DNA from: an uncultured Pelagibacteraceae bacterium
Lineage (GTDB): Bacteria > Pseudomonadota > Alphaproteobacteria > Pelagibacterales > AG-422-B15
Direction: 5' to 3'
DNA: 53,040 bases
Assembly (NCBI GenBank): GCA_902624455.1
Contig: CACNXQ010000007.1
Span: forward strand, 1-53,040
Shown here: in pieces, positions 20,963 to 26,474 of the stretch
Position numbering within the stretch: position 1 is the first letter of the stretch
Layout of the letters: each line of letters starts with the position of its first letter
Notes under the pieces: model-generated
The model's database searches: none
The model's input: the letters and a program-made list of their open reading frames with translations, nothing else
What the model was told of the DNA's origin: nothing
Translations under genes and position numbers: made by a program

Positions 20963-22117
20963 CTATATTTTACCCAAGAATATATTTTTATTTATCCACA
21001 AACTACAGTTATGTATATCTTTTAGATTAGGTTGGGTGATATTTTTGTTGCTCTTAAGAAATTTCTTAATAGTTATTTCATTATAATTCACAATGTCTAA
21101 AAATCTAATTTTTTTCTGTAAAAAATGATCAACTAAAATTTCATTGTTATAATTAAAGATATGTGGGGCAAGGCCTCCAATTTCTAATACCTTGTATGCT
21201 AATTTAATTGCAGGAAATCTATTTTTATTTATTTTATAAAAAGATAAATTTTTTTTATTCAGTTGCTGAAATATGTTGTCATTTGTATTTAGGTTATCAT
21301 TAACCTGTAATAAATATGATATTGGGATTTTCATATCTGGTTTAGATAAAAGACTTATTGAAGAATTATCATAAAAATTAATAGCAGCATGAATTATTGA
21401 TTCAGGATGAATTATTGCATTGATTTGATCACTATTTAAATTGAAAAGATATTTAGCTTCAATAATTTCTAAAGCTTTATTCATCATGGTCGAAGAGTCG
21501 ACTGATATTTTTTTTCCCATTTTCCATACAGGGTGTTTAATCGCTTGATTAGGAGTAACATTTTTTAAAAAACTAATTTTTTTATTAAGAAAAGGCCCGC
21601 CAGATGCCGTTATTGTAATTGATTTAAATTTATTATTGTTTGACTCTAATAGCCTGTAAATTGAATTATGTTCAGAATCTAATGGTATAATTTTCGACTT
21701 ATTTTTTTTAGCTAATAAAAGTAATCGAGGTCCTAATGAAATTATACACTCTTTATTAGCTAAACCAATGATCTTACCTGATTTTGCTATATCGTAACTT
21801 AGATTCAGAGGACTTAAGCCTGATATGGCTAGAATTATTACGTCAATATCCTTTGTTATAAATTCTGAAAAATTATCATTTCCTATCAAAAGATGTTTAC
21901 TGTTAATTTTACTATTTTGGAGTTTATATTTTTCAGCAGCCTCATGATTGTTGATACCAATCTTCTCAATACTATACTTAATTCTTAATTTTTCTAATTT
22001 TTTATAATTCTTATTACAAGTTGCAGCTACTACTTTTAATTTTTTTTGATTATTTTCGACAATTTTGAAAACGGAGTCTGCAATTGTTCCAGTTGCTCCG
22101 TAAAGAAGAATTCTCAT
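20963..22117 (-). CDS. dxr: 1-deoxy-D-xylulose 5-phosphate reductoisomerase
   Basis: Makes methylerythritol phosphate, the committed step of the MEP isoprenoid pathway. The 384-residue protein shows the NADPH loop GATGTIADSVFKIV, LANKECIISLGP, the metal-binding PLDSEHNSIYRLL, ITASGGPF, KHPVWKMGKKISVDSSTMMNKALEI (in parts) and HPESIIHA. All catalytic acids are present. It supplies isoprenoid precursors to UppS two genes upstream. It follows cdsA directly. Confidence 0.97.
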   Translation of the reverse strand: MRILLYGATGTIADSVFKIVENNQKKLKVVAATCNKNYKKLEKLRIKYSIEKIGINNHEAAEKYKLQNSKINSKHLLIGNDNFSEFITKDIDVIILAISGLSPLNLSYDIAKSGKIIGLANKECIISLGPRLLLLAKKNKSKIIPLDSEHNSIYRLLESNNNKFKSITITASGGPFLNKKISFLKNVTPNQAIKHPVWKMGKKISVDSSTMMNKALEIIEAKYLFNLNSDQINAIIHPESIIHAAINFYDNSSISLLSKPDMKIPISYLLQVNDNLNTNDNIFQQLNKKNLSFYKINKNRFPAIKLAYKVLEIGGLAPHIFNYNNEILVDHFLQKKIRFLDIVNYNEITIKKFLKSNKNITQPNLKDIHNCSLWINKNIFLGKI

Positions 22118-22783
22118 TTATGATATAAATATTATTAAATAAATTCCAAAAAAGAAAAAAACAAATACAAAGGAGTCCATCCTGTCGATTATCCCCCCAT
22201 GTCCTGGCATTATCTGCCCAGTATCTTTTATATTCACACTTCTTTTCAAAACAGAAACAATAAAATCGCCTATGAATGAAAGAACAATTATTGGAATAGT
22301 TTTAAGAAAAACCATATTTAAATCTTTATAGACCTCAAAATAGTACAGGCCAGTAATTATCAGTGTAGCAATGATACCAATATACAATCCATTAAATGTT
22401 TTACCTTTACTAATACTTGGCATTAGCTTTTTTCCATTTAAAGTTTTTCCACCTAAGTAACAGAATGTATCAAAAATCCATATAGTTATTATTATTTCAA
22501 TAACCTTTAAACTTAAATTTTCAAATGATAAAACTGAAAGTATAAATGTAAAAATTGTTGAAATGCAAATTAACAAATACAAATACATAAAAGTCCTTTT
22601 TTTAGAAATTTTTATCATATCAATCAGTTCAATAACCATAAGTGATAAAAGAAAAATATATAATAAATAGAGAAAGTAGCCTTTCACCAATATTGGTACA
22701 ACTATTAAAGGTATAAATAAAATAGCTGAGAATAACCTTTTGACAAAATTTTTCTTATCATAATTGCTTATTTTACTTTCCAT
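22118..22783 (-). CDS. cdsA: Phosphatidate cytidylyltransferase
   Basis: Makes CDP-diacylglycerol from CTP and phosphatidate for phospholipid synthesis. The 221-residue membrane protein has about six to seven transmembrane helices and the C-terminal family signature SVLKRSVNIKDTGQIMPGHG followed by GIIDRMDS. It is shorter than the usual 260-280 residues, mainly in the N-terminal membrane part, a reduced form that keeps the active site. It overlaps uppS by 11 bp. Confidence 0.93.
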   Translation of the reverse strand: MESKISNYDKKNFVKRLFSAILFIPLIVVPILVKGYFLYLLYIFLLSLMVIELIDMIKISKKRTFMYLYLLICISTIFTFILSVLSFENLSLKVIEIIITIWIFDTFCYLGGKTLNGKKLMPSISKGKTFNGLYIGIIATLIITGLYYFEVYKDLNMVFLKTIPIIVLSFIGDFIVSVLKRSVNIKDTGQIMPGHGGIIDRMDSFVFVFFFFGIYLIIFIS

Positions 22784-23471
22784 AATTACGTTTTCTTTTT
22801 TTGAAATTTATAATTATTCTTTTTAAATCCGTGATATTAAAATCTGGCCACAATTTTTTTGTAAAATATAGTTCTGAGTATGCTGATTGCCATAACATAA
22901 AGTTACTCAATCTTAACTCACCACCTGTTCTAATTATTAAATCTGGATCTTTAGAAGTAGATGTATACAAATTCTTTGTTATGTTATTTTTATTAATCTT
23001 GCATGACTTTATTTTTTTAATAGAATTTACAATCTCATCCCTGCCTCCGTAATTAAAAACTAAATTGATGCAAGTAGAAGTATTATTTTTTGTCTTTTTA
23101 GTTACATTATCAATTATTTTTAATATTCTTCCATTCAGCTTTTTTCTAGATCCATAATGTCTAATTTTAAGGTTATAGTTTTGTGCAGTTTTTTCGAATT
23201 CCTGATAGAATTCTTCTATAAGATTAAAAAGATTTTTAATCTCACTTATTGAACGTTTCCAATTTTCAGATGAAAATACATAAAATGAAAGTTCTTTTAC
23301 ATGTATATCTAATTTATTGATACTTTTAATAAGATTTATGCAAGATTTTATTCCAGCTTTATGGCCTTCTTTTTTTTTCAAATTATTTTTTAATGCCCAT
23401 CTACCATTGCCATCCATTATGAATGCTAGATGATCTATTTCGTAATGATTTTTTCTGTTATGTTTAACCAA
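22773..23471 (-). CDS. uppS: Undecaprenyl diphosphate synthase
   Basis: Builds the C55 lipid carrier for peptidoglycan and polysaccharide synthesis from isopentenyl diphosphate. The 232-residue cis-prenyltransferase has D20 in IMDGNGRWA, the YVFSSENWKR segment, NYGGRDEIV and the C-terminal RTGGELRLSNFMLWQSAYSE block with the Mg-binding acids. It follows frr by 2 bp. The last 15 residues are very lysine- and arginine-rich, as in many AT-rich relatives. Confidence 0.96.
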   Translation of the reverse strand: MVKHNRKNHYEIDHLAFIMDGNGRWALKNNLKKKEGHKAGIKSCINLIKSINKLDIHVKELSFYVFSSENWKRSISEIKNLFNLIEEFYQEFEKTAQNYNLKIRHYGSRKKLNGRILKIIDNVTKKTKNNTSTCINLVFNYGGRDEIVNSIKKIKSCKINKNNITKNLYTSTSKDPDLIIRTGGELRLSNFMLWQSAYSELYFTKKLWPDFNITDLKRIIINFKKRKRNYGK

Positions 23472-23473
23472 GA

Positions 23474-24031
23474 TTATATTTTTTTTAAATCTTCTTCTTT
23501 ATGTTTATGAGCTTCATCAATTATTTTAATGAATTCTGAGGTCATGTTGTCAATATCACTTTGAAATTTTTTTGATTCATCTTGGCTTATATTTTTTTCT
23601 TTTTCACTATTTTTAACTTTTTCTATTCCATCTCTTCTAATATTTCTTATAGCAACTTTAGCTGACTCAACAATCTTTCCAATTACCTTTAGAAATTCAT
23701 CTCTTCTTTCTTCAGTGAGTTGTGGCAATGGTAATCTTATTAAATTTCCTTCTATTATAGGATTTATTCCTAAATTTGACTCTCTTAGGGACTTGTCAAC
23801 TAATGTAACATTGGATGCATCCCAGACTTCTACATTTATTGTGCGAGGGTCTGGTGTAGTAATGTTTCCTATTTGATTTATTGACATTTTTTGACCGTAA
23901 GCTTCGACTTTTATCGAGTCCAACATGCCTGGTGAAGCTCTTCCTGCTCTTATTCCTGAAATTTCAGATTTTGCTGATTGACTAGAGGACTCCATCCTTT
24001 TTCTTAAATCTATTGATAATTCATCAAACAT
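23474..24031 (-). CDS. frr: Ribosome recycling factor
   Basis: Splits the post-termination ribosome with EF-G. The 185-residue length is exact for the family, and the motifs SGIRAGRASPGMLDSIKVEAYG, NITTPDPRTINVEVWD, NPIIEGNLIRLPLPQLTEERR and AIRNIRRDGIEKVK are visible (read as overlapping blocks). It overlaps pyrH by 8 bp, the standard pyrH-frr pairing. Confidence 0.97.
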   Translation of the reverse strand: MFDELSIDLRKRMESSSQSAKSEISGIRAGRASPGMLDSIKVEAYGQKMSINQIGNITTPDPRTINVEVWDASNVTLVDKSLRESNLGINPIIEGNLIRLPLPQLTEERRDEFLKVIGKIVESAKVAIRNIRRDGIEKVKNSEKEKNISQDESKKFQSDIDNMTSEFIKIIDEAHKHKEEDLKKI

Positions 24032-24743
24032 TGTAAATCTCCGAGGTTTTAATTTCGTTATTCACTGCTCTTACAAAAGCATTTTTTTCTTTAATTGAAA
24101 ATACCTTTATTGGAATATTATTTTCCCGTGCAATTGCAACGGCTGAACTATCCATAATTTGTAAATTACTTGCTAAATAATCATCATAGCTTATTTCTTT
24201 AACTTCTTTTGCATCAGAATATATTTTTGGATCTTTATTATAAATACCTTCTACTTGTGTTGCTTTAAATATACAATCACATTCGAGCTCAGCTGCTCTA
24301 AGTGCGGCAGCTGTATCAGTTGAAAAGTATGGATTTCCTGTACCAGCAGCACATATAACGATTCTATTTTTTTCCATGTGTCTTATTGCTCTACGCCTGA
24401 TGTAAGTCTCACATATTGATTGAATTGGAAAAGCTGACATGACCCTTGTCTCAAGTGATAACTTTTCAAGACCGTTTTGTAATCCTAAGCTATTCATTAC
24501 TGTAGCAAGCATACCTATATAATCAGCATTGGCTCTTTCCATGCCTTTAGCAGAGGCAGCTAGTCCCCTAAATATATTTCCTCCACCAATAACTATGCAA
24601 GTTTGTATATTAATTTCTCTAAGATTTTTTATATCATTTGCAATTTTATCAACAACTTCGAGTTCAATGCCATAATTTTCATTTCCCATGAGTGACTCTC
24701 CGGATAACTTTAAAAGTATCCGTTTATTTTCTGATTTGACCAT
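24024..24743 (-). CDS. pyrH: Uridylate kinase
   Basis: Phosphorylates UMP to UDP. The 239-residue amino-acid-kinase-fold protein shows LLKLSGESLMG, VIGGGNIFRG, ANADYIGMLATVMN, TGNPYFSTDTAAALRAAEL and ATQVEGIYNKDPK. It ends with TGA, one of several TGA stops in the window, showing that TGA is a stop codon and not tryptophan here. It starts 2 bp after tsf. Confidence 0.97.
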   Translation of the reverse strand: MVKSENKRILLKLSGESLMGNENYGIELEVVDKIANDIKNLREINIQTCIVIGGGNIFRGLAASAKGMERANADYIGMLATVMNSLGLQNGLEKLSLETRVMSAFPIQSICETYIRRRAIRHMEKNRIVICAAGTGNPYFSTDTAAALRAAELECDCIFKATQVEGIYNKDPKIYSDAKEVKEISYDDYLASNLQIMDSSAVAIARENNIPIKVFSIKEKNAFVRAVNNEIKTSEIYNV

Positions 24744-24745
24744 TT

Positions 24746-25570
24746 TTAATTTCCTAGTTCGTATCTTACGAATTTATCTATGATGATGGTTTCACCAATT
24801 TCTTCTGAAGCACTCTTAAGGTAGTCGCCTATACTTAAACTTTGATCCATTACAAATTTCTGCTTAAGAAGAGTTACTTCCTCAAATATTTTATTAATTT
24901 TTCCTTGAAGCATTTTTTCAACAATATTTTCTGGTTTACCTGAATCTTTTAGTTGCTTTTCAATAATTTCTTTTTCTGCTTCTAAATATTTATTATCTAA
25001 ATCTTTTTCACTAATTGAAAGTGGTGAAGCTGCAGCTATGTGCATGCATAATTTTTTACCTAAATCACTTAAATCTTTTTCAGAGCCACTTAGCTTTAAA
25101 AGAACTCCAATCTTTCCTAAACCATCATCAATCTTGTTATGAACATAAGAGTGAATATTTCCATCTAAATAATCAGCTCTTTTGAAAACAATGTTTTCTC
25201 CTATTTTGCCTACTGCATCACTAATTAAATCTTTGCAGTCCTCAATTATTTTGTTGTCACCCTTGTGATCAAGAGAAATATCTAAAATTTTATTCACGAG
25301 TGCTTGAAACTCTTTATTTCTAGATACAAAATCTGTTTCTGAGTTAATTTCAACTATCGAGGCGCCCTCTTTAGCATTTTTAATCCCAATCAAACCTTCA
25401 TTTGCTTCCCTGCTCGATTTCTTTTCTGCTTTTGCAATGCCTTTTTCACGAAGTAATTTGAAAGCCTTTTTTACATCACCATTTGAGTCATTTAAGGCTG
25501 ATTTACACTCCATCATTCCAGCGCCCGACATTTTTCTCAGTTCTTGAACTTCTTTTGCTGAAATACTCAT
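24746..25570 (-). CDS. tsf: Translation elongation factor Ts
   Basis: Exchanges GDP for GTP on EF-Tu. The 274-residue protein starts with the UBA-like domain (VQELRKMSGAGMMECKSAL), has the EF-Tu contact TDFVSRNKEF at about 80-90, and a duplicated core domain. It starts 2 bp after rpsB in the universal rpsB-tsf pair. Somewhat short for the family, but no missing motif was seen. Confidence 0.97.
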   Translation of the reverse strand: MSISAKEVQELRKMSGAGMMECKSALNDSNGDVKKAFKLLREKGIAKAEKKSSREANEGLIGIKNAKEGASIVEINSETDFVSRNKEFQALVNKILDISLDHKGDNKIIEDCKDLISDAVGKIGENIVFKRADYLDGNIHSYVHNKIDDGLGKIGVLLKLSGSEKDLSDLGKKLCMHIAAASPLSISEKDLDNKYLEAEKEIIEKQLKDSGKPENIVEKMLQGKINKIFEEVTLLKQKFVMDQSLSIGDYLKSASEEIGETIIIDKFVRYELGN

Positions 25571-25572
25571 TA

Positions 25573-26355
25573 CTATTTAGCCTCAGTAACTGTATTTTGA
25601 CTTGTATCTTCTGTAGAACTTTCTTTTGATTCAGATTTACCGTTAGGTTGAGACATGTTTTCGTGAAAAATTATTGGTTCTGAAGAATTAATAGTTTCTT
25701 TAATTGCATTACAATAATATTCAATTGACCTTCTTGAGTCATCATTTCCAGGTATTGGAAAATCAATTAAGTCTGGATCACAGTTTGTATCAACTATTCC
25801 AATCGTTGGAATTTTTAGGTGCTTAGCTTCTGCAACTGCAATATGCTCTAGCTTAGTATCTATTATAAAAATTAGATCAGGTGATTTTTTCATATCACTA
25901 ATACCGTTAAGAGATTTTAATAATTTTTCATGCTTATTCGAAAGTTTGAGAATTTCTTTTTTAGTGAATTCATTTTTTGGATTTGATTTTAGAACCTCTA
26001 GTTCTTTCATTTTTTTTATTGATTTTGCTATTGTAGACCAGTTCGTTAACATACCACCTAACCAACGATGGTTTACATAATATTGACCAGTTTCATCGGC
26101 AAGATCAGCAACTTTTTTTGATGCTTGTTTCTTAGTTGCAACAAATAGAATTTTGCCTCCTTTGGATACAGTCTCATCAATAACTTTTAATGCTTCTTGA
26201 AATAATTGCAGAGTCATATTGAGATTTATAATGTGAACATTTTCTCTGGTGCTATGTATGTATTTAGACATTTTAGGATTCCATCTTTGTGACTTATGTC
26301 CAAAGTGCACTCCTGCGTTGACTAAATCTTTTAGATTAAGGTTAGGTATACTCAT
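25573..26355 (-). CDS. rpsB: 30S ribosomal protein S2
   Basis: Part of the small ribosomal subunit head-body junction. The motifs LVNAGVHFGHKSQRWNPKMS, FVATKKQA, VNHRWLGGMLTNW, PDLIFIIDT and PTIGIVDTNCDPDLIDFPIP are present, with a hydrophilic C-terminal tail of about 30 residues. I chose the ATG at 26355, giving MSIPNLNLKDL and 260 residues: it has a perfectly spaced GGAG 7 nt upstream (26363-26366). A frame opening at 26385 would put coding sequence over that ribosome binding site and leader. Confidence 0.97.
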   Translation of the reverse strand: MSIPNLNLKDLVNAGVHFGHKSQRWNPKMSKYIHSTRENVHIINLNMTLQLFQEALKVIDETVSKGGKILFVATKKQASKKVADLADETGQYYVNHRWLGGMLTNWSTIAKSIKKMKELEVLKSNPKNEFTKKEILKLSNKHEKLLKSLNGISDMKKSPDLIFIIDTKLEHIAVAEAKHLKIPTIGIVDTNCDPDLIDFPIPGNDDSRRSIEYYCNAIKETINSSEPIIFHENMSQPNGKSESKESSTEDTSQNTVTEAK

Positions 26356-26427
26356 TTGTTTTCTCCGGTTGCACATCCACAGCAATTAGACCTAAAAGGA
26401 CCGGACAGCAATCAGCTATCGCTGTGT
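26356..26427 (-). promoter_or_regulatory. Structured rpsB leader, candidate autoregulatory element
   Basis: The leader mRNA contains TCCGGT (26405-26400) whose exact complement ACCGGA (26369-26364) overlaps the Shine-Dalgarno GGAG (26366-26363). Between them lie two smaller stems, CC-TTTTA-GG (26399-26391) and TTGC (26385-26382) with GCAA (26372-26369), the latter sharing one base with the main stem. Upstream is a further hairpin, CAGC-x-AT with AT-x-GCTG (26406-26424). GC-rich pairs in such an AT-rich setting are unlikely by chance. Ribosomal protein leaders that hide the ribosome binding site are a known way for S2 to repress its own operon. Function here is inference. Confidence 0.6.
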
Positions 26428-26447
26428 GATTAATTAGGGATTAATTA
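26428..26447. repeat. Helically phased repeat in the rpsB promoter region
   Basis: GATTAATTA occurs twice (26428-26436 and 26439-26447), 11 bp apart, so both copies face the same side of the helix. On the minus strand they lie between a possible -35 (TTGAAT) and the leader, so one copy may include the -10. Could be a regulator site or simply a promoter duplication. Confidence 0.55.
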
Positions 26448-26474
26448 CACGAACTCGATAATAAATTCAATAAC

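Follow-up and report, generated by a model that had tools for sequence, protein, structure and literature searches.

The 5' leader of rpsB in the stretch of DNA analysed here (53,040 nucleotides of an uncultured Pelagibacteraceae bacterium, referred to as the window) is a member of the published rpsB motif family (RF01815), and hence a known RNA element, not a new one. The pair of complementary segments TCCGGT/ACCGGA is the pseudoknot of this motif. Its 3' strand overlaps the Shine-Dalgarno (SD) sequence of rpsB. The element is likely to be an operator in the 5' UTR for ribosomal protein S2, through which S2 is predicted to repress its own synthesis by direct occlusion of the SD.

Architecture of the rpsB leader

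On the minus strand, the dnaE stop codon is followed by 119 nt and then by rpsB. A read-out of the sequence gave the two pseudoknot strands, GGAG, and AUG exactly at the positions listed in Table 1, so the exact complementarity overlapping GGAG that a sequence-only reading had reported is present. The hairpin which that reading had placed upstream is P2. The last base of P2, U26405, is common to the outermost pseudoknot pair. Of two small stems proposed between the partners, CCU/AGG is P3 and recurs with changes in relatives, which have CCU/AGG, CCC/GGG, or longer forms. The other stem, taken to be TTGC..GCAA, was discarded, as it occurs in only one of 58 leaders from the SAR11 order, that of the window, and some of its bases are part of the P1 3' strand. 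Helix P1 itself had been overlooked. Genome G013, which belongs to the window's genus, has the same leader.

Two in-frame codons, ATG at 26376-26374 and TTG at 26385-26383 (both on the minus strand), lie inside the leader, and the list of open reading frames opens rpsB at the TTG. Both were rejected as the rpsB start; in relatives, the gene begins at the position equivalent to 26355. The sequence GGATCACCTCCTT was found once in the genome and was taken as the 3' end of 16S rRNA (anti-SD). The genes after rpsB overlap or are separated by gaps of a few bases. Judged from their sequences, we take them to be tsf, pyrH, and frr, followed by uppS-, cdsA-, and dxr-like genes.

As judged by eye, relatives have promoter-like boxes similar to those in Table 1 at roughly the corresponding position; a scan with a consensus promoter did not report the TTGAAT/TGTAAT boxes. 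None of the papers listed by a literature search is, by its title, a transcription start-site map for SAR11. An attenuator was considered and rejected. The one terminator-like site (26420-26404; 0.4 expected) consists of P2 followed by CGGTCCTTTT, and its T run is absent in many relatives.

Table 1. Features of the rpsB leader and neighboring genes in the window (models R1 and R2 are described in the text).
Feature	Position	Strand	Sequence or remark	Basis
Tentative promoter	26444..26470	-	TTGAAT 26470-26465 and TGTAAT 26449-26444, 15-nt spacer; weak	Similar boxes in relatives, by eye; located between dnaE stop and P1
Whole leader element	26351..26430	-		RF01815 match 26352-26430; R1 match 26351-26430; R2 match 26351-26428
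Helix P1	26375..26430	-	5' arm 26430-26421 AUC-A-CACAGC, A26427 bulged; 3' arm 26383-26375 GCUGUGGAU	
P2 hairpin, 5 bp	26405..26419	-	AUAGC-UGAUU-GCUGU	Stem parse of SAR11-order leaders, not alignment score
Pseudoknot 5' strand (J2-3)	26400..26405	-	UCCGGU (26405-26400)	Conservation and class-wide covariation
P3 hairpin, 3 bp	26391..26399	-	CCU-UUU-AGG	Stem parse of relatives, not alignment score
Pseudoknot 3' strand, overlaps SD	26364..26369	-	ACCGGA (26369-26364)	Conservation and class-wide covariation
rpsB SD	26363..26366	-	GGAG (26366-26363), 7 nt 5' of AUG	SD count over leaders
rpsB (ribosomal protein S2)	25573..26355	-	AUG 26355-26353	ORF list and protein comparison
Downstream genes, same direction, tight spacing	20963..25570	-	Putatively co-transcribed with rpsB	ORF coordinates

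Membership in the rpsB motif family and its distribution

The rpsB motif was first described in 'Ca. Pelagibacter ubique'. According to the rpsB section of Meyer et al. (2009; PMC2704228), P1 meets P2 and P3 in a junction of three stems, and J2-3 forms a pseudoknot with the 3' extension. RF01815 was equated with this motif by name and structure. In the motif, P2 and P3 are variable and possibly very short; those of the window have 5 and 3 bp, respectively. The J2-3 segment pairs with the 3' extension beyond P1, P1 covaries, and the element is located 5' of rpsB, as is the motif apart from a few copies 5' of the EF-Ts gene. An rpsB RNA has also been noted in strain HIMB5 (PMC6429828).

The sequence-only reading had proposed an Rfam search. 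A permissive Rfam scan of the leader returned a full-length match to RF01815 (E 0.0037-0.0064), but its 24.3 bits fall short of the gathering cut-off of that family (40 bits), and an Rfam scan of the window found no family at or above its own cut-off. The 40-bit gathering score is a curation threshold and not a structural feature. Two other weak matches were treated as chance: that of snoU18 in the permissive scan, and that of RF02980 (freshwater-2), an overlap with 15 bits and an E of 7.2, far below its cut-off of 49.9.

At E ≤ 1, RF01815 was detected in 22 of 59 relatives, one of which (G019) has it away from its rpsB. None of the 59 reaches the cut-off, even though 'Ca. P. ubique' is the source of the original description. 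Under the strict filters of this search, the window's own genome gave no RF01815 match. Across the class, the family was found in 239 of 387 genomes, with 104 of the 387 above the cut-off. Among 14 control genomes, it was found in Caulobacter only, below the cut-off, and E. coli was without a match. As a member of RF01815, which is widespread in Alphaproteobacteria, the leader is not lineage-specific, contrary to what had been suggested for it.

Two models of our own were used in addition. R1 was derived from 42 aligned elements, with P1 as its sole helix and no pseudoknot pairs. Fourteen of the 150 class-sample genomes, that of the window among them, contributed to its training set, so the R1 match of the window (E 4.9e-17) proves nothing alone. 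To test for this circularity, R2 was trained solely on 29 elements from outside the SAR11 order. Its single match in the window is the leader (E 1.8e-6), and it matched 48 of 48 SAR11-order rpsB loci with an E of 2.7e-4 or better.

The class sample comprises 172 genomes, 171 of them with rpsB. The 150 loci searched, which are among those listed, were chosen by protein and include the window's locus and that of one other SAR11-order genome (L203). Among the loci listed, R1 matched 139 of 150 at E ≤ 0.01 (14 of the 150 being training loci) and 147 of 150 at E ≤ 1, the exceptions being L207, L218, and L236; a few of the weakest matches at E ≤ 1 are fragmentary or lie on the incorrect strand, e.g., one for L305. 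In the SAR11 order, we collected 58 leaders, 48 of which represent every genome with an rpsB match (48/59) and 10 of which were picked by the pseudoknot pattern, which makes the pairing circular in these 10. The leaders fall into two families, f1 with 35 members, including the window, and f2 with 23. R1 matched all 58 loci, including the 10 chosen by pattern.

Conservation and covariation of the helices and the pseudoknot

In the 42-sequence alignment, eight of the nine P1 pairs change on both sides, and the second pair, an outer one, does not form in 30 of these sequences. For the whole structure, 94.3% of the cells in this alignment are paired, compared with 31.6-47.5% when the structure is slid. 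Within the 58 SAR11-order leaders, double changes occur in five of the seven predicted P1 pairs. P2 takes the form AUAGC/GCUGU in f1 and GGU/ACC or AGGGC/GCCCU in f2. The variation of P2 and P3 between subgroups, parsed and not scored by alignment, is compatible with pairing. Minimum free energy was set aside as evidence, being not significant: RNAfold, which cannot model a pseudoknot, gave no unusual stability (z of -0.85 and -1.23), and 43 and 25 of 200 shuffles, respectively, fold as well or better.

The pseudoknot core is kept in all 58 SAR11-order leaders, 48 of which had been chosen by protein only. Hence, the loss of pairing in close relatives that was looked for is not seen among them. 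The five core pairs are invariant, with no covariation in the 42-sequence set or in the 58 SAR11-order leaders. As the core never varies in close relatives, it displays conservation without covariation there. The compensatory changes anticipated for TCCGGT/ACCGGA appear at the level of the class instead, for example in the variants UCCAGU/ACUGGA, UCUGGU/ACCAGA, UUCGGU/ACCGAA, and UCCGAU/AUCGGA. In alignment A2, three core pairs have one, four, and five double-change cells, the whole core has two unpaired cells, and each core pair has seven or eight gapped cells; alignment A3 adds one double change, and these alignment-based counts are subject to the bias of the R1 consensus toward the standard pseudoknot strands, since the training elements of R1 and R2 are RF01815 hits.

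In a control independent of any alignment of the 5' strand, CCGGT was found in the inner element of 126 of the 127 leaders with ACCGG. The same control covered 19 leaders whose 3' strand is altered; the exact complement is present in 13 of them, and those complement 5-mers occur in 0.7-12.5% of the leaders that have another 3' strand. The six leaders without an exact 5-mer complement were inspected by eye: wobble pairs complete the pairing in L284, L252, L300, and L230, the register is shifted in L258, and L241 was split by the search.

From the sequence of the window alone, the pairing is only mildly unlikely. When the 55 nt upstream are shuffled by mononucleotide, TCCGGT arises in 1.2% of cases (window alone). 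A perfect 6-mer complement to some hexamer overlapping the SD is expected in about 4.7% of ORFs and was seen in 1 of the 24 SD-bearing ORFs of the window, in a test that let rpsB begin at the in-frame ATG (26376) and thus scored rpsB itself improperly. The looser pattern CCGGT..ACCGG is not rare in one genome; it occurs twice in that of the window, against eight times for the reversed control. What places the pairing beyond chance is its conservation together with the class-wide compensatory changes.

Overlap of the pseudoknot with the Shine-Dalgarno sequence and predicted repression

The best SD overlaps the pseudoknot core in 56 of 58 SAR11-order leaders and in 15 of 140 leaders from other Alphaproteobacteria, a difference for which the Fisher test ignores relatedness. 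The latter number was obtained after 8 of 149 class leaders could not be placed and L203 was left out. The overlap is present in 35 of 35 leaders of f1 and in 21 of 23 of f2, a family with a weak SD (20 of its leaders have one of 3 nt). The core is 7-10 nt away from the start codon in the 58 SAR11-order leaders (median 8.5 nt), compared with a median of 16 nt in the 140 others. The pairing in the rpsB leader can thus hide its own ribosome binding site, as first proposed from the sequence, because the pseudoknot strand overlaps the SD. The mark of the lineage is this geometry, which is nearly fixed in the examined SAR11-order leaders and also occurs elsewhere. No statement of it was found in the rpsB section of PMC2704228, in passages of PMC10931766, or among the titles and abstract openings listed by searches of an open literature collection, and it may be the one mildly new point about a known element.

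Outside the SAR11 order, the pseudoknot strand runs into GGAG in four Hyphomicrobiales leaders (L065 to L068), namely those of Microvirga (L065 and L067), a member of the Xanthobacteraceae, and one more. In L204 (genome G132), the core is 81 nt before the start codon and the SD is separate, as if the linker had expanded; this gap may be the longest of the sample.

We propose that the mRNA would fold into P1, capped by P2 and P3, with UCCGGU at the P2-P3 junction pairing with ACCGGA directly after P1. Free S2, produced beyond what the 30S subunits take up, would bind to the fold and make it more stable (with the help of S1 in E. coli). The genome encodes an S1-like protein, which scores 518.7 bits, below the S1 family cut-off of 577 that only 2 of the 14 control genomes pass. 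Because the 3' strand of the pseudoknot contains the SD in the window's genus and in the SAR11 order generally, the folded state would directly deny access to the 30S subunit and lower the production of S2. Control of tsf, pyrH, frr, and the envelope genes behind them had also been suggested; the tight gene spacing is consistent with such an effect on these distal genes, which would probably be lowered as well. When the pseudoknot is left out of the prediction, the SD bases GGA of the window are still largely paired (unpaired probability of 0.06-0.19), which weakens a simple two-state switch.

An S2 operator might also work in another way, with S2 (and S1) trapping or repelling the 30S subunit upstream, which may also happen in E. 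coli; in that case the SD overlap in SAR11 would be a by-product of genome shortening. The separate SD in E. coli and in most other Alphaproteobacteria sampled fits this alternative, as does the short stretch between core and start codon throughout the SAR11-order sample; moreover, a 2024 review calls the repression mechanism in E. coli unclear and places the ribosome binding site outside the operator (PMC10931766). We nevertheless regard it as unlikely, as the overlap is kept in all but two of the SAR11-order leaders and is found in 15 of the others, and formation of the pseudoknot physically entails occlusion. A ligand cannot be named from conservation alone, and the element could in principle act constitutively on translation or mRNA stability with S2 not being its ligand. 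This is very improbable, given that the fold precedes rpsB throughout the class sample and is similar to the leader of E. coli, which responds to S2 (PMC10931766; PMC2704228). Chance complementarity in an AT-rich leader has practically no weight left against a core kept in 48 leaders chosen by protein only and its compensatory variants in the class.

Direct occlusion of the SD in response to S2 is therefore the reading we favor. We would give even odds to a further proposal, that the S2 operator of the SAR11 order has been economised by merging the pseudoknot strand with the SD, so that repression would be plain SD sequestration, unlike in E. coli; the same merger in some Hyphomicrobiales, e.g., the two Microvirga leaders, may mean that it arose more than once. 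Versions of the operator with a merged and with a separate SD make the unsettled mechanism of S2 repression testable for occlusion.

In 'Ca. P. ubique' HTCC1062, the motif is at 873155-873283, between dnaE and rpsB (PMC2704228). Locus L039 (genome G041, of the window's order) was taken as this founding copy, because its rpsB starts at 873284. The two leaders share the location between dnaE and rpsB, P1, short P2 and P3, the pseudoknot CCGGU/ACCGG, and a score below the Rfam cut-off. They differ in the first pairs of P1 (A-U and U-A in the window, C-G and G-U in HTCC1062), in P2 (AUAGC/GCUGU in the window), and in the SD (GGAG in the window, GGGA in HTCC1062).

In E. coli, rpsB is controlled by S2 (PMC10931766; PMC2704228), and the rpsB-tsf leader is the S2 operator (Aseev et al., 2008, 2009, as cited in the same two sources). 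This leader and that of the window both have the CACAC start of P1 and the gene order rpsB-tsf. The E. coli K-12 leader gave weak R1 and R2 matches (14.6 and 16.9 bits, respectively), and only when a stretch of 1.5 kb was searched. Its pair between J2-3 and the 3' extension was read as GGGGU/ACCCC, and its SD, GAGG, follows 12 nt after the pseudoknot strand, in which there is no SD. As the SD of E. coli is outside the operator, the mechanism there may differ. Compared with this separation, the merged arrangement in SAR11 suggests direct occlusion, the simplest version of S2 repression.
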